NCBI GenBank assembly: GCA_003244145.1
Contig: QHBM01000123.1
Coordinates: 614-44,793 of the forward strand
Direction: 5' to 3'
Length of the DNA stretch: 44,180 nt
Origin: Chthoniobacterales bacterium
GTDB lineage: Bacteria > Verrucomicrobiota > Verrucomicrobiia > Chthoniobacterales > UBA10450
Positions 29,029 to 37,224 of the stretch are shown here, in pieces. The translations under genes were made by a program, and so were the position numbers. Within the stretch, counting starts at the first letter, position 1; every line of letters starts with the position of its first letter. The notes below the pieces were generated by a model. The model was not told the DNA's origin, ran no database searches, and was given only the letters and a program-made list of their open reading frames with translations.

Positions 29029-29265
29029 GTGACGTTCGAGGAGATTAGGAAACTTTATGATGCGGCGCCATTCCGGCCGTTCGAGTTCATTTTGACGAAC
29101 GGACGGCAGGTGCGGGTGGATCATTCAGAATTCATGGCGCTGTCGCCGAATGAGGATGTCGTCGTGGTGTTTGAGCCGGATGGTCATTTGACGATTGATG
29201 TTCCACTAATCATCGGCGTGAAGGAATTTCGGAACGGCGCTCGCCTACGCAAGCGCAAGCGGTGA
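29029..29265 (+). CDS. Small conserved-looking protein, translationally coupled to ispG
   Basis: A 78-residue protein from a GTG start at 29029, preferred over the in-frame ATG at 28939, which lies inside the ybjQ-like gene. It reads 'MTFEEIRKLYDAAPFRPFEF', then 'LTNGRQVRVDHSEFMALSP' and 'VVVFEPDGHLTIDVP', and ends in a basic tail. The alternating beta pattern suggests a small beta-rich fold; no named family or function can be given. Its TGA overlaps the GTG start of ispG (GTGA at 29262-29265), so ispG translation is probably coupled to it. Confidence 0.7.
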   Translation: MTFEEIRKLYDAAPFRPFEFILTNGRQVRVDHSEFMALSPNEDVVVVFEPDGHLTIDVPLIIGVKEFRNGARLRKRKR

Positions 29266-31115
29266 ACTACTGCGGCAATCCCTATCGTTACCGACGCCGG
29301 GTAACGCGCGAAGTGATGATCGGCCGCGTCGGCGTCGGCGCAGAGAATCCGATTCGGGTTCAATCGATGATCACGTGCGACACGATGGACACGGAGGCAT
29401 CGATTGCGCAGACCATCGAGCTGGCGGAAGCCGGTTGCGAGATCGTGCGGATCACGGCCCCGACGGTAAAAGATTCGGCGAATTTGGAGCACATCGTGCG
29501 CGGTCTGCGCGAGCGCGGCTGCGACGTACCGATCGTGGCCGACATTCATTTCAAACCCGAGGCCGCGATGGAGGCGGCGAAGTGGGTGGAGAAAGTCCGG
29601 ATCAATCCGGGGAATTACGCGGACTCGAAGAAATTTAAGATCCTGGAATACACCGACGAGCAGTATGCCGCGGAGCTGGAGCGGATTCGCGAGCGCTTCA
29701 CCCCGCTGGTCAAGCGCTGCCACGAACTCGGCCGCGCCATGCGGATCGGGACGAACCACGGCTCGCTCTCCGATCGGATCATGAACCGCTACGGCGACAC
29801 GCCGCTCGGGATGGTAGAGAGCGCGCTCGAATTTGCGCGGATCGCGCGCGACCTCGATTACCACGCGTTCGTTTTCTCGATGAAATCGAGCAACCCGAAA
29901 GTGATGATCAACGCGTACCGGCTGCTGGTGGCGCGACTGCGCGAAGAGGGAGACGATTGGAATTATCCGATCCATCTGGGCGTGACGGAGGCAGGGGAAG
30001 GGGAAGACGCACGGATCAAGAGCGCGATCGGCATAGGCTCGCTCCTGCATGATGGGATTGGCGACACTATTCGCGTTTCGCTCACGGAAGACAGCATCCA
30101 CGAAATCCCGGTGGCCCGGGCCCTGGTGCAAATGGTCGAGCGCGCGAGTCGCTCGCCTAACGAACAGTCGGAACAAGCGGTCCGGCTCTCCTATAATCCA
30201 TTCGAATACGAGCGCCGCGGATCGAACAAGATCGAGCGCGATGGGATCAAACTCGGCGGAGACGAAATGATGCGCGTTGTTGTTCGCCAGACGAATTTTG
30301 ACAAGGTCGCGCACAAGCTGGATCGGCTGGGCGATTACCAACCGGAGATTGTTTACGAGAAAGCCGGCATCGTGGAATTGGACCCGCGTGACGCCGCCGC
30401 GATCGAGCAACTGAACAAATCGGCGGAGGACAAGATTATTACAGTGAGGGACGATCTGGCGATGCCTGTGATCACGGCGTTTCGTTTGCTCGCATCGAAA
30501 GCCGCCGCGCGGCATCCGATTCTGCTAAAGGATGTGCTCAGCGCTCCCCGAATGTGGGAGGGGCCTCAGCGCCCCGACTCTGCAAAGACGCGCGATGATC
30601 GCGGCACTGAGGCCGCTCCCACATTCCTGCAAACGCTCCTCACGGCCGCGACCAATATCGGCTCGCTCCTTTGTGATGGGATCGGCGATGCGATTCTCGT
30701 CCAGGGCGAAGAAGCGCCGGGCCAGGCCTTGCGCGTGAGCTACAACATTCTGCAAGCGGCCGGCTCGCGCATTTTCAAAACCGATTACGTGGCCTGCCCG
30801 TCGTGCGGCCGCACCTTGTTCAACCTCCAGACCACGACCGCGCGCATCAAAGAGAAAACCTTGCATTTGAAGGGGGTGAAGATCGCCATCATGGGTTGTA
30901 TCGTGAATGGCCCTGGCGAAATGGCTGACGCGGATTTCGGATACGTAGGAGGCGCGCCCGGGAAAGTGAATCTTTATGTGGGCAAGACCGCGGTGAAATT
31001 CAACATCCCGGAAGCTGATGCCGTCGAGCGCCTGCAGGATTTGATTCGGGAACATGGGAAATGGGTGGAACCCGTGGAGGCGATCGGAGCCGGGGTAGAA
31101 TCGGCGCCGGTGTAA
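29262..31115 (+). CDS. ispG: 4-hydroxy-3-methylbut-2-enyl diphosphate synthase, long form
   Basis: A 617-residue protein, GTG start at 29262 overlapping the stop of the small ORF. IspG converts MEcPP to HMBPP with a [4Fe-4S] cluster. The N-terminal TIM barrel is plain ('VRITAPTVKDSANLEHIVR', 'VPIVADIHFKPEAAMEA', 'KVRINPGNYADSKKF'). The iron-sulfur domain has Cys512 and Cys515 ('CPSCGRTLF') plus Cys546 and Glu553 in 'MGCIVNGPGE'. The extra domain of about 250 residues between them is the known long-form insertion (plants, Chlamydiae, Chlorobi, Verrucomicrobia; E. coli has 372 residues). Residues about 430-455 are encoded by a palindromic repeat at 30551-30625, an in-frame insertion not expected in this family. 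All cluster ligands are intact. Confidence 0.97.
   Translation: MNYCGNPYRYRRRVTREVMIGRVGVGAENPIRVQSMITCDTMDTEASIAQTIELAEAGCEIVRITAPTVKDSANLEHIVRGLRERGCDVPIVADIHFKPEAAMEAAKWVEKVRINPGNYADSKKFKILEYTDEQYAAELERIRERFTPLVKRCHELGRAMRIGTNHGSLSDRIMNRYGDTPLGMVESALEFARIARDLDYHAFVFSMKSSNPKVMINAYRLLVARLREEGDDWNYPIHLGVTEAGEGEDARIKSAIGIGSLLHDGIGDTIRVSLTEDSIHEIPVARALVQMVERASRSPNEQSEQAVRLSYNPFEYERRGSNKIERDGIKLGGDEMMRVVVRQTNFDKVAHKLDRLGDYQPEIVYEKAGIVELDPRDAAAIEQLNKSAEDKIITVRDDLAMPVITAFRLLASKAAARHPILLKDVLSAPRMWEGPQRPDSAKTRDDRGTEAAPTFLQTLLTAATNIGSLLCDGIGDAILVQGEEAPGQALRVSYNILQAAGSRIFKTDYVACPSCGRTLFNLQTTTARIKEKTLHLKGVKIAIMGCIVNGPGEMADADFGYVGGAPGKVNLYVGKTAVKFNIPEADAVERLQDLIREHGKWVEPVEAIGAGVESAPV
30551..30625. repeat. 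Palindromic repeat element inserted in frame in ispG
   Basis: The 23-nt arms at 30551-30573 and 30603-30625 are inverted copies matching at 21 of 23 positions (left arm begins AATGTGGGAG, right arm ends CTCCCACATT), separated by 29 nt. The element is 75 nt, so it keeps frame, and it contains no stop in the ispG frame. It resembles REP-type intergenic palindromes and also the in-gene palindromic elements described in Rickettsia. Confidence 0.88.
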
Positions 31116-31203: not shown

Positions 31204-31431
31204 ATGAAATACAAACTTGCAGTTTTATTGGCCGCGCTGATGTGCGCGGGGGCGATGGTTCCGAAGACTGCGGACGCGCTCAGGATTAATATCGCGATCG
31301 GTGATCGGCCCTATTACACCCATGGGCCATGGTACTGGAATAATGGCGTGCGTTGGTACTGGATCCCGGGTCATTTTGCCTGGCGCCACCATCATCAAGT
31401 CTGGATTCCGGGCCACTACGCGGCCCGATAG
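31204..31431 (+). CDS. Small secreted protein with W-x-PGH repeats
   Basis: A 75-residue protein with a Sec signal peptide ('LAVLLAALMCAGAMVPKTADA', cleavage near residue 25). The mature part of about 50 residues is Trp/Tyr/His-rich and has two copies of a short motif, 'WYWIPGHFAWR' and 'VWIPGHYAAR'. Small periplasmic proteins with such YxWxPGH repeats are frequent in Proteobacteria and Verrucomicrobia and lack a known role; metal binding by the His cluster ('RHHHQ') is a guess. It is followed by a strong terminator. Confidence 0.82.
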   Translation: MKYKLAVLLAALMCAGAMVPKTADALRINIAIGDRPYYTHGPWYWNNGVRWYWIPGHFAWRHHHQVWIPGHYAAR

Positions 31432-31457
31432 GCTCAGCGGTTGGAAAACTCAAAATC

Positions 31458-31492
31458 AAAAAACGCGCGGCATCCGATGTCGCGCGTTTTTT
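31458..31492. terminator. Rho-independent terminator, probably bidirectional
   Basis: A perfect 12-bp stem, AAAAAACGCGCG (31458-31469) with CGCGCGTTTTTT (31481-31492), and an 11-nt loop that can itself partly pair. The A/T runs on both sides allow termination on either strand. It ends the small secreted protein gene. Confidence 0.9.
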
Positions 31493-31560
31493 GTTGTGGT
31501 GAGGCTGCCGCCGTAGTTGACTCCACACCTGCTCTGCATTCACCCACCCCAAAGAAACTC

Positions 31561-33363: not shown

Positions 33364-36300
33364 ATGTCTCGCATTAAGATCACGGCACTAGCCATCCTCG
33401 TATCACTCTCTGCGTTCTTCGCGGTTTGGGGCGTTTCATTACGACCCGGAGCAAACACGACTGCAACATCGCCCGCTGATGATGCTGATCCCGATTTGCC
33501 GTCCAAGGCATTCATGCAAAACAGCATCGATCAAGAAGACTATCTCGATATGCGGTCGCGAGCGATTTCGCGTAAGCACGGTATCGATCCCGACGTCGAC
33601 TTGGACCCGGGACTGAGAACAACCGCGATCGCAAAGTTTGAGGAGCAACAGGAAGCCCTTCTGCGCAACACTCCGGAATCCATGCGCGACCCGGTGACGG
33701 GAACTGGCCTGCCTGCCTGGGTTCCTATCGGACCGTTCTCGATTCCGAACGGACAGACAACGGCGGCTGCGGGCGGAACGATTGCAGTTTCCGGCCGAAC
33801 GACCGCTGTCGTAACCAATCCTTCTGACGCGAACGTGGTTTATATAGGCACGGCGCAGGGCGGTGTTTGGCGCTCGAAGGATGGCGGCAATACTTGGGTG
33901 AGCATTTTCGATAATGCGCGGTCGCAGGCCATCGGAGCCCTGGCGCTGGCTCCGTCGAATCCTTCGATCCTTTATATCGGAACCGGCGAGGCCCACTTTT
34001 CCGTCGACTCCTTCTTTGGCATCGGTCTTTATCGAATCGATAATGCCGACACGACCACCGGCGCCCTGGCAGACCTGAAGGGCCCAATCAATCCGCCTTA
34101 CACCTTCACTGCGAATGCAACGGGCAATCCGTCGATCACGACGACCTGTTTCGGCGGACGCGCAATCAGCCAAATCCTTGTCAACCCAACCGATCCCGCA
34201 ACGATCTTCGTTTCGACGAGCACCGGCGCTGCGAGCAATCACGGAAACGGGCTTTCCTCTTTTGTTCCGCCGCTCGCGCTGGTGGGCGTTTATCGTTCCA
34301 CCAATGCGACTGCCGCCCCATCTGCAGTGACATTTACGAAACTGGCGGTGGCGCCGAATGGCGGCAGCCTGGACGTTCCGGGAACAGGTAATCGACGAGT
34401 CTCCGACATGGCGTTTGAGCCGGGCAATCCGGACGTTCTGCTCGCTGGCGTTTTTGGTAACGCAGCCGCTGGGGATGGCGGTGTTTTCCGCTCCACCAAC
34501 GCGACCTCGGTGAGCCCCACGTTCACGCAGACGCTGACCATTTCTGCGACCCGCATCAATTTCGCAATTCAAAAAACGGGCGCGGTCGTAACTGTTCTCG
34601 CGGCCACTTCTGAGTCGTCCGGGACTGTTGCCTGCGGCGTCGGCACGGGCCAGTTGCGCAAATCCATCGATGGAGGTGTGACCTGGCCAAGTGTCGCGGC
34701 CACCGCCGCAACCGGGGGCATTTTGACTGGCGCGGACGGTTTCTGCGGTGGCCAATGCGTCTATGATATTACGGTGGCGATGGCGCCGGCGGATCCGAAT
34801 ACCATCTATCTCGGTGGAAACGCGACCGGCACCTGCTCCAATTCAGTCAAAAAATCGACCAACGGGACGACGTTCGTGCGCGATGATAACAAAGTGCACG
34901 CCGACACCCAGATCCTCTATGTTTCCAACACCACGCCGCCTATCGTCTTTGACGGAAATGACGGCGGCATTTGGAAGCGCGACGCGACTTTGGCAGCGGG
35001 TTCGGCGTGGACGGATCTAAACAAGGCTCCACTTAACGTTACGCAATTCCAAAGCGTGGCGGTCCACCCGACCGACCGTAATTTCACGATCGGCGGAACC
35101 CAGGACAATGGGACTGAAGCCCAGGACGACCCTGCGGGCGCCGGTCCCTCCGTGTCCGGGCAGTGGATTAGCGCCGAGGGAGGCGATGGCGGATTCGCGC
35201 TCATCGACTCAAACTCGAACGCGACCGCCATCACGATGTATCACACGTTCTTTAACCGAACGGGCCTCCAGATCGTCTTTGACCGGGCTTTGACGCGCCT
35301 TTGTCTAGCGACAAAGGATGGCTGGGAGACCCGGGGCAATTTTGCAGGTGCGCCGCCTATAGATGCCACCCCATCCTGCGATACGACTCCATTCTTTGTC
35401 CAGAACGGAATCGCCCTTACGGATACGGTTAATTTTTATGCGCCGATGGCGTTAGGACCCGGTAATCCCAACACGTTGTATTTTGGCACGGACCGGCTCT
35501 ACCGCTCGATCAACCAAGGCGACCTCATGACGGTAGTCAGCCAGGCGCCGTTCGCTGCGGGCAGAGCCATTGATTACGTCGCCATTTCTCCGCAAACCGA
35601 TAATTCGCGCATCGTCGGTCTGGACAATGGCAAAGTGTTTGCGACAACGACCGGTGCAGCTGTCCTGATCGACACGAACTTCCCGCCGCCGAACAATGCG
35701 CAAGCCAATACGTTCCGCGATATCGGACAGATGAGGTTTGCTCCTAACGATCCCAACACTGCCTATATCTCGCTGGATTACTACTTCGATTCGCCGAACG
35801 CGACGACTTCGCACGTGTGGAAAGTTGTGAATCTAAACACGACACCAGTCTGGACGCCCCTCCAAGGCACAGACCAGAATGTTCTTCCAAACATTCCGGT
35901 CAACGCCTTGGTGGTTGATCCGGCGCAGCCAAACCGCATCTTTGCCGGCACCGACATCGGCGTCTATGTGACGCAGGACGGCGGCGCCAATTGGGTCCCG
36001 TTCGGCCAGGGTCTGCCGCGCGTCGCGGTCTTCGACATGGCCATTCAACCTACCAGCCGACTGCTGCGTATTGCCACGCACGGCCGCGGCATGTGGGAGA
36101 TTCCTGTCGCGGCAGTGGCAGGTCCATCACTTACTACTCAGGTGGCCTCAGCGGCGATCTCGCTGGGTAGCAGTACCTCCGATACTGCCACGCTCTCCGG
36201 TGGACAGAATCCAACTGGCTCCATCACGTTCAGGCTTTTCGGGCCAAACGATAATAGCTGCTCGAACGCGCCCATCTTCACCTCAGTCCAAGGAGTAAAT

Positions 36301-37224
36301 GGTAACGGGACCTATACTTCTGGTTCGTTCACGCCGTCGGCGGTGGGAACGTATCTCTGGGTGGCGAGTTATAGCGGCGACAGTAACAACGGCGGCCTCG
36401 CCACGCCTTGTGGCGATGCGAACGAAACCGTGACGGTCACGCTGTCGCAGCTGGTGAACGTGTCGACTCGGGCCCGAGTAGAAGCCGGCAACGGTAACGA
36501 AATCATTGGAGGGTTCATCATCCAGGGAAGTGCATCGAAGAAGGTGCTCATCCGAGGCCTCGGACCTTCGTTACAGTCCATGGGTCTTACCGATGTTCTG
36601 ATTAATCCGACGCTCGAGCTGCATCCGGCAAGCGGTCCGGTGGTGTTTAACCAGGACTGGAGAGACACACAGGCAGCCGCCATCCAGGCAACCGGAATAC
36701 CGCCGCTGTATGATGTCGAGTCCGCAATTCTGGCCACACTAGCTCCGGGCAACCACACAGCCATCCTCAAGGGCCTGAATGGTGGTTTGGGCCTTGGATT
36801 GATAGAAGTGTATGACTTGGACACAGCTTCTTCCAAGCTGGTCAACCTGAGCACCCGTGCTTCGGTTACGAGCGGGAACAACGTTATGATTGGCGGCTTC
36901 TTTGTCGGTGCTGGCAACGGCGGCGGCAACATCGTCGTGCGCGCCCTTGGGCCATCACTCTCATCCGGTGGAGTAACCAATCCGCTGGCAGATCCCACGT
37001 TGGAACTGCGCGACGGAGATGGAACGCTGATAATGTCGGATGACAATTGGCAGGACAACCCGACCCAGGCCACAGCCATCTCTGCGGCAGGACTGGCGCC
37101 TACCAATACGAAGGAGGCTGCTATTATCAAGTTCCTGGCTCCCGGTGCTTACACCGTGATCGTGCAGGCAAGACCCAACACGGGGACAGGAGTAGGTCTG
37201 GTGGAGATCTACAACGTTCCGTAA
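33364..37224 (+). CDS. Giant secreted Asp-box (BNR/sortilin-like) protein
   Basis: A 1286-residue protein. The signal peptide is at about 1-27 ('ITALAILVSLSAFFAVWG'). Residues about 115-920 form a beta-propeller-like region with Asp-box motifs S-x-D-x-G-x-T-W: 'SKDGGNTWVS' (about 170), 'SIDGGVTWPS' (about 435) and 'TQDGGANWVPFG' (about 873), plus repeated 'NPSILYIGTGEA'-type strands. This resembles VPS10/sortilin and BNR-repeat glycosidase-like proteins (propellers often binding sugars or peptides), but no full glycosidase active site was identified. An Ig-like domain follows (about 920-1025). The last 258 residues are the same two-copy C-terminal module (1029-1286) as in the 2011-residue protein, ending 'EIYNVP'. 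It is probably surface-attached or secreted. A near-consensus RBS precedes it, and a terminator follows. Confidence 0.9.
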   Translation: MSRIKITALAILVSLSAFFAVWGVSLRPGANTTATSPADDADPDLPSKAFMQNSIDQEDYLDMRSRAISRKHGIDPDVDLDPGLRTTAIAKFEEQQEALLRNTPESMRDPVTGTGLPAWVPIGPFSIPNGQTTAAAGGTIAVSGRTTAVVTNPSDANVVYIGTAQGGVWRSKDGGNTWVSIFDNARSQAIGALALAPSNPSILYIGTGEAHFSVDSFFGIGLYRIDNADTTTGALADLKGPINPPYTFTANATGNPSITTTCFGGRAISQILVNPTDPATIFVSTSTGAASNHGNGLSSFVPPLALVGVYRSTNATAAPSAVTFTKLAVAPNGGSLDVPGTGNRRVSDMAFEPGNPDVLLAGVFGNAAAGDGGVFRSTNATSVSPTFTQTLTISATRINFAIQKTGAVVTVLAATSESSGTVACGVGTGQLRKSIDGGVTWPSVAATAATGGILTGADGFCGGQCVYDITVAMAPADPNTIYLGGNATGTCSNSVKKSTNGTTFVRDDNKVHADTQILYVSNTTPPIVFDGNDGGIWKRDATLAAGSAWTDLNKAPLNVTQFQSVAVHPTDRNFTIGGTQDNGTEAQDDPAGAGPSVSGQWISAEGGDGGFALIDSNSNATAITMYHTFFNRTGLQIVFDRALTRLCLATKDGWETRGNFAGAPPIDATPSCDTTPFFVQNGIALTDTVNFYAPMALGPGNPNTLYFGTDRLYRSINQGDLMTVVSQAPFAAGRAIDYVAISPQTDNSRIVGLDNGKVFATTTGAAVLIDTNFPPPNNAQANTFRDIGQMRFAPNDPNTAYISLDYYFDSPNATTSHVWKVVNLNTTPVWTPLQGTDQNVLPNIPVNALVVDPAQPNRIFAGTDIGVYVTQDGGANWVPFGQGLPRVAVFDMAIQPTSRLLRIATHGRGMWEIPVAAVAGPSLTTQVASAAISLGSSTSDTATLSGGQNPTGSITFRLFGPNDNSCSNAPIFTSVQGVNGNGTYTSGSFTPSAVGTYLWVASYSGDSNNGGLATPCGDANETVTVTLSQLVNVSTRARVEAGNGNEIIGGFIIQGSASKKVLIRGLGPSLQSMGLTDVLINPTLELHPASGPVVFNQDWRDTQAAAIQATGIPPLYDVESAILATLAPGNHTAILKGLNGGLGLGLIEVYDLDTASSKLVNLSTRASVTSGNNVMIGGFFVGAGNGGGNIVVRALGPSLSSGGVTNPLADPTLELRDGDGTLIMSDDNWQDNPTQATAISAAGLAPTNTKEAAIIKFLAPGAYTVIVQARPNTGTGVGLVEIYNVP

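Follow-up and report, generated by a model that had tools for sequence, protein, structure and literature searches.

The closest described systems come from Pseudomonas fluorescens SBW25, from O. terrae, a Verrucomicrobium whose genus is presumably Opitutus, and from Rickettsia. In P. fluorescens SBW25, REPINs are inverted REP doublets that lie in extragenic space beside their cognate RAYT, according to the passages available to us of Bertels and Rainey (2011; PMC3116915). GTAG-tagged REPs inside ORFs were described for O. terrae by Di Nocera et al. (2013; PMC3733652). The accessible parts of that paper report that more than half of the intragenic REP inserts are dimers or groups coding for 20-30 aa, and note a GTGG tag variant for O. 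terrae GTAG-20. The genes they name as carrying intragenic REPs belong mainly to DNA and RNA metabolism, and in recB of two Xanthomonas species differing REPs occupy nearly the same position. The Rickettsia palindromic elements are ~150 bp long and lie in frame in unrelated metabolic genes (excerpts of PMC10969869). Going by these excerpts, repeats of this sort in frame within genes had been reported before from both Verrucomicrobia and Rickettsia, and the kind is known. The original prediction had seen novelty in palindromes within genes of a different phylum, which the O. terrae report (PMC3733652) had preceded.

We analyzed a stretch of 44,180 nucleotides (the window; positions 614-44793 of G000:C62) in which a 75-nt palindrome lies within ispG (Table 1). 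It has in common with the SBW25 REPINs, as those passages describe them, an inverted REP doublet, a spacer, a hairpin and an adjacent cognate RAYT (here in relatives). It differs in its verrucomicrobial host, in having at most 15 strict copies per genome and in that some copies are in frame in conserved genes. With the O. terrae REPs in the excerpts of PMC3733652 it shares the phylum, the presence of REPs in ORFs and the GTGG tag variant; ispG as a target and one loop filled by many kinds of insert appear in neither the cases nor the passages we consulted. The Rickettsia elements, compared by their description in the excerpts, are likewise palindromes in frame in protein genes, but at ~150 bp they are longer than the 75 nt here and are reported from Rickettsia. 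A literature search that covered few subscription papers, partly as excerpts, returned neither ispG as a REP target nor repeated filling of a single loop by many kinds of REP; recB in Xanthomonas came nearest. The "ISPg" of PMC5771137 is, in the passage available, the name of an insertion sequence.

Table 1 Positions in the window of ispG, its two variable loops and the parts of the REPIN.
Feature	Position	Strand	Description
ispG	29262..31115	+	4-hydroxy-3-methylbut-2-enyl-diphosphate synthase of the long form, 617 aa; start codon listed as GTG among the ORFs
Loop A	29940..29957	+	residues 227-232; short in G000, other inserts in relatives
Loop D	30534..30623	+	residues 425-454, flanked by LKD and FL; repeated target of inserts within the family
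REPIN	30551..30625	.	75 nt (25 codons), in frame in ispG; encodes MWEGPQRPDSAKTRDDRGTEAAPT; codons shared with both neighbouring residues
Left REP	30551..30577	+	27 nt, GTGG tag; AATGTGGGAGGGGCCTCAGCGCCCCGA
Spacer	30578..30598	.	21 nt, between the two REPs
Right REP	30599..30625	-	inverted; TCGCGGCACTGAGGCCGCTCCCACATT

The G000 assembly (3.6 Mb, 173 contigs, 88% complete) has a single ispG match, the copy in the window. Its product scored 466.2 bits against TIGR00612, over the cut-off of 280, and 598.6 bits against the long-form profile NF002534, under the curated cut-off of 886; it also matched Pfam GcpE. Among the best 50 matches of a fold search, IspG structures came top, followed by unrelated barrel proteins. 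Residues 285-489 had no counterpart in the alignment with the solved IspG 3noy, in agreement with the accessory-domain site proposed for the palindrome. In an AlphaFold2 model built from 58 aligned sequences (mean pLDDT 80), residues 429-451, which follow a strand (420-423) and precede a helix (455-471), had pLDDT <50, and the insert residues are thus modelled as disordered. Cys512, Cys515 and Cys546, all encoded 3' of the insert, were invariant in 58/58 aligned IspG sequences, and the stretch of ispG after the insert accordingly seems to be under constraint. The frame would be translated at full length, through peptides around the insert junctions such as WEGPQRPD and RGTEAAPTFLQTLL.

Several other features of ispG were seen in relatives. 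Residues 288-300 and 318-332 of their IspG hold further length-variable, repeat-like peptides, such as VAAGVSPA...AADTAAT. The otherwise nearly full-length ispG genes of G053:C61, G032:C165 and G025:C174 each contain a single in-frame stop. In L181 (G078), L138 (G024), L177 (G085) and L141 (G011) the gene is split over at least two frames, with the break of G078 at loop D; these splits could be assembly errors or real frame changes.

The repeat search placed 28-nt arms at 30550-30577 and 30599-30626, 89% complementary and 21 nt apart. Comparison with other copies set the ends of the element at AAT...ATT, which gives a total of 75 nt, made up of 27-nt arms around a centre of 21 nt. The span of the inverted repeat was therefore as originally predicted, and this comparison recut the proposed 23/29/23 division as 27/21/27. 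The predicted in-frame, stop-free passage of about 25 residues was also found: the repeat makes up exactly 25 codons of the 617-aa frame. Read from the sequence, each REP arm has its own short inner palindrome, GGGGC...GCCCC. We assume that the arm sequence resembles P. fluorescens REPs. The tag of this REP, which we call REP1, is GTGG, a variant of the tetranucleotide that marks the GTAG REP superfamily. The element folded at -49.6 kcal/mol as RNA (z -7.3) and with a z of -6.5 as DNA, and in both cases 0/200 shuffles equalled it. REPINs are recognized by two inverted REPs and a spacer that form one hairpin, by dispersed copies and by a cognate RAYT beside the same REP; all three are seen here, the RAYT in relatives. 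The likeness of the arms to intergenic REPs that had been suggested is refined, by this anatomy and the partner gene, to a RAYT-linked REPIN.

Seven inverted repeats with arms of at least 18 nt within 120 nt were found in the window, and the ispG palindrome has the longest arms. Complementarity exceeded 80% in two of them, the ispG palindrome and an 18-nt pair at 31457-31493 (94%). The latter ends in a T run after a small frame that starts at 31204, and looks like an ordinary terminator. A known structured RNA was rejected as an identity for the palindrome, with 0 Rfam matches at the gathering score across the window. Elsewhere in the window, 33364-37224 is a frame of 1286 aa, whose sequence resembles repeated sortilin/BNR-type segments.

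We searched for further copies with a 96-nt query. It gave 17 matches in G000, which correspond to 11 distinct places including ispG; of the 10 others, 4 are full strict doublets and 6 match about one arm. Matches to this query occurred in 19/39 genomes, G000 included. A strict doublet pattern found 85 copies, counted on one strand, in 27/83 same-family genomes, while the reversed pattern used as a control found 0/83. The short arm motif behaved differently. Its 14-nt form was not enriched in the window (9 matches with ≤3 mismatches vs a shuffle mean of 7.1), and genome-wide, with 2 mismatches, the short pattern gave 14+13 matches vs 12+6 for the reversed control. This motif is unremarkable by itself; the evidence for a family comes from the longer matches and from the doublet pattern with its zero controls. 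Strict doublets are few per genome (5 in G000, 13 in G003 and a maximum of 15 in G016), and the low number in G000 counts against the REPIN explanation.

These copies bear on an alternative in which the loop is ancestral and its palindrome a matter of chance. A loop is present here in all readable relatives, as that reading expects, but copies of the palindrome are dispersed, the reversed control was empty and the loops of relatives are short or different. We rejected the chance origin, to which we give almost no probability. The arm search across G000 and same-family genomes and the alignment of IspG from close relatives, both proposed at the outset, turned up dispersed copies and a short loop or another insert at the same place. 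An ancestral loop shared by all relatives, with no palindrome copies elsewhere, is contradicted by these results, and the insertion that had been proposed is upheld by the 10 other places in G000, the loops of relatives and in-frame copies in dnaE and metH.

A candidate mobilizer was found among the PF01797 transposases, which occur in 22/24 genomes examined. A RAYT with an identity of ≥61% to the G004 protein was present in 11/83 same-family genomes (in G103 as a partial gene at a contig end). REP1 lies within ~70 nt of this close RAYT in all 11, on both sides in 7, and was found beside distant RAYTs at 0/9 loci. Close RAYTs were present in 9/27 genomes with strict REPINs vs 2/56 without (Fisher p 0.0005). 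The close RAYT protein contains PDHWH and, further along, a tyrosine motif. In G000 (88% complete) the best match was 28% identical, so no cognate RAYT is evident in the window's genome, and the absence of a close RAYT there counts against the REPIN explanation. Separately, a single frame on G021:C223 (L049, L187) matches both a CHY zinc finger and RAYT, and three REPINs lie within ~2.5 kb.

The doublets are not confined to ispG. Of 47 doublets with known flanks, 13 lie inside conserved protein genes, seven in number: ispG (G000, G014, G086), dnaE (G000, G058, G086), metH (G000, G007, G016), formate dehydrogenase alpha (G020), nnr, encoding NAD(P)H-hydrate dehydratase/epimerase, and a starch-synthase-like gene (both G016), and ileS (G007). 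Two further ispG copies (G002 and the decayed copy of G049) were missed by the doublet search and are plain in the alignment. Three of the five strict copies of G000 are intragenic and in frame, in ispG, in dnaE and in metH, where the insert sits between the homocysteine methyltransferase and pterin-binding domains. The fourth precedes the domain of a 6-phosphogluconolactonase-like gene, and the fifth is not spanned by any long frame. The remaining 34/47 doublets were assigned no conserved gene; for some of them no long frame crosses the copy, and crossing frames were scanned in part. Six such further frames were scanned: the copy lay outside the matched domain in L012, L061, L049 and L197, and L063 and L204 had no match. 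A protein-coding mobile palindrome family had been envisaged, and copies in frame in conserved genes do exist, but a mainly coding family is unsupported, given 13/47 copies in such genes vs 34 unassigned.

The in-gene copies have common properties. Length was a multiple of three in 12/13, and 11/13 were read in the same phase (phase 2), giving peptides like MWEGPQRPD...RGTEAAPT. Counted per gene, phase 2 was used in 5/7, and this bias is suggestive only, because the 13 copies represent seven genes. In 19 copies with lengths in threes from outside the 13 in-gene loci (38 readings), phase 1 was open in 36, phase 2 in 33 and phase 0 in 11. Phase 2 was the most hydrophilic reading of these same 19 copies over both strands. 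Lengths in threes as a rule for all REPINs found no support: among the listed copies of the 85 the count was 37/75, and 29/66 without 9 in-gene copies (p 0.09).

We then compared loop D across relatives. An ispG match was found in 66 of the 83 same-family genomes searched, and loop D was readable in 55 of these and in 15 other genomes of the order. It had at least 18 residues in 32/55 family genomes vs 0/15 others of the order, where it has 8-13 residues; in 23/55 family genomes it was shorter than 18 aa. Inserts of one of six kinds, assigned by eye on peptide and DNA, were carried by 30/55 readable family genomes, and the long loops of G001 and G020 were given no kind. The kinds are NDE (NDEARMTN...RHSS; 10 genomes), CRA (GTAG-tagged, CRASVSDA...GVSQKRP; 6 genomes), REP1 (5 genomes), VGA (GTAG-tagged, VGAVDRNGPGRLGSIAPT; 5 genomes), HPE (HPERREAKRNAVEG...; 2 genomes) and ILD (2 genomes, G010 and G046). 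GTAG/CTAC ends are present on the CRA and VGA inserts and on several inserts in loop A.

Palindromicity was assessed by letter shuffling. In 17/32 loops of at least 18 aa, ≤2/200 shuffles were as good as the real sequence. The 15 failing loops were those of G002, G003 and G088 (4 shuffles of 200 each), G010 and G101 (5 each), G096 (9), G095 (12), G080 (15), G046 (24), G048 (26), G001 (59), G049 (68), G062 (71), G011 (110) and G020 (190). A passing member exists for five of the six kinds; no ILD member passes. In loop A, strongly palindromic inserts (≤1/200 shuffles) occurred in eight genomes (G086, G096, G084, G064, G078, G039, G069 and G004), and the loop A inserts of G041 and G062 and the slightly longer one of G030 failed the shuffle test. 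The hairpin in the message is very stable, and REPs are discussed as RNA elements in the accessible parts of PMC3733652, which would suit an element kept beyond mere tolerance for a role of its mRNA or DNA hairpin, such as ribosome pausing or mRNA stability. We consider such a role improbable, as the loop is shorter than 18 aa in 23/55 family genomes and several inserts, for example that of G049, pair no better than shuffles.

Named loci were compared as well. Of 575 matches, 80 were kept, including Chthoniobacterales and one Candidatus Udaeobacter MAG; 45/80 were readable at loop D and 5 had a loop of at least 18 residues. L238, L239, L242 and L244 (the last being the Candidatus Udaeobacter MAG) carry REP1, NDE or CRA inserts, but they seem to be the same as G086, G093, G023 and G103 and therefore do not count as independent evidence beside the survey. 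In L285, a Verrucomicrobia MAG that is more distantly related (64% identity), loop D has 65 aa and a repeat-like peptide. Long loops are therefore not confined to the window's family, and this sequence suggests that the site may be open to inserts beyond it. The compared family genomes are mostly fragmented assemblies, and G000 could in principle have acquired the element as an artefact of metagenome assembly. This is highly improbable: the frame is intact over 617 residues, and the insert kinds recur in many genomes as well as in the four loci above, though these are seemingly survey genomes.

For three kinds, the loop inserts correspond to repeats that are plentiful in the carriers examined. 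Dispersed copies were counted in 5/10 NDE carriers, 5/6 CRA carriers and 2/2 HPE carriers; counts include the ispG copy, cover both strands and are lower bounds in rich genomes, for each of which no more than 40 candidates were scored. The NDE carriers G075, G004, G006, G018 and G042 had at least 61, 59, 83, 62 and 47 matches, and the non-carriers G000, G002 and G017 had 2, 1 and 2. For CRA, the carriers G088, G023, G101, G080 and G103 had 19, 12, 41, 9 and 23 matches (lower bounds where rich) and the non-carriers G000, G002 and G017 had 2, 16 and 0. HPE matches numbered at least 54 and 48 in the carriers G003 and G047, and 3, 0, 7 and 58 in the non-carriers G000, G002, G017 and G007. NDE shows a clear fit between carrying a kind and being rich in it. 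CRA and HPE have a single exception each: the non-carrier G002 exceeds the CRA carriers G023 and G080, and the non-carrier G007 is as rich as the HPE carriers.

Phylogenetic analysis addressed the turnover of the inserts. On a quick tree of 70 IspG proteins with loops removed (29/67 inner branches open), loop kind changed 21 times when short loops were counted as empty and 19 times when they were left out. Shuffling the kind labels over the 51 family rows gave a mean of 26.2 changes and a minimum of 22, with 0/1000 shuffles at or below 21. The kinds thus turn over fast yet keep a family signal, and this signal counts to some extent against repeated insertion. Loop identity, from which gapped positions were excluded, was higher than identity at fourfold sites of the flanks in 27/27 carrier pairs, for example 94% vs 42% for G014/G086, 85% vs 39% for G075/G006 and 78% vs 41% for G003/G047. 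The gaps were narrowest for G000/G002 (79% vs 60%) and G086/G049 (82% vs 57%). The loop of G000/G002, from the same genus, has 27 gapped positions, and its identity of 79% is below the 84% of the flanks. Judged from these identities, a single old insertion followed by neutral descent does not fit most pairs, and separate insertions or local rewriting would fit.

Transfer of insert-bearing ispG alleles between lineages would place the same element, in the same phase, in different genera, which is what we see. But identity right beside the insert is ordinary (77-78% for G014/G086, vs 94% in the loop), no high-identity tracts extend beyond the insert in nine pairs compared, and the quick tree places G000 and G002 with their own genus in a clade of support 97, and G014 and G086 elsewhere. 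With the loop far more alike than the adjacent ispG sequence, we rejected allele transfer as very unlikely.

Gene conversion is another way to rewrite the loop: one ancestral insert would have opened it, and later copies would have been written in by recombination between repeats, with no new transposition. The inserts stand in for part of the native 8-13-residue loop and have common boundaries, VL/TL-type residues and (D)FL. They seem to replace native residues, so exchange or later trimming happened; simple insertion leaves this unexplained, and it counts against our preferred reading. G002, G014 and G086 also share a changed third base of the element, the same short version and an unusual left end, and need not be three separate insertions; the G000 copy is longer and has more native residues before the element. 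Different REP kinds without homology speak against conversion, as do flanks just outside the insert whose similarity does not exceed that seen elsewhere in ispG, and 11-aa outgroup-like loops in the family members G016, G045 and G008. We regard conversion as an unlikely account of the loop, though a credible one for the REP1 carriers, whose five cases may represent fewer than five separate insertions.

We interpret the ispG stretch, with considerable confidence, as a RAYT-mobilized REPIN in a disordered loop, the same loop having been filled repeatedly in the family. The REPIN, a REP doublet that is non-autonomous, would be mobilized in trans by its cognate RAYT, an IS200/IS605-like Y1 transposase, and would have inserted into ispG at a point of the accessory domain that encodes a disordered and flexible loop. 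The enzyme may tolerate the copy owing to its length, a multiple of three, and to its phase, in which the peptide is hydrophilic and free of stops; such tolerance is the probable cause of the hotspot. Within the family, loop D would be refilled repeatedly, for the most part by REP-like families of which the genome holds many copies, and older inserts would decay or be replaced. A bolder extension, which we offer tentatively as a possibility, is that loop D acts as a safe harbour in soil Verrucomicrobia, losing and regaining inserts as one REP family succeeds another. Each species' ispG would then record its recently active repeat family, and the REPs might be suited to translation through their hydrophilic, stop-free phase and their lengths in threes.

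The in-frame palindromes of Rickettsia prompted the question of whether bacterial protein sequence can be built from selfish DNA. Here a single core enzyme gene carries several kinds of insert across one soil family, and a likely transposase partner has been identified for one kind. The inserts also caution against reading every such peptide of a metagenome protein as part of a conserved domain, since it may derive from a repeat. For this family, they make turnover, choice of phase and tolerance measurable in one gene, ispG.
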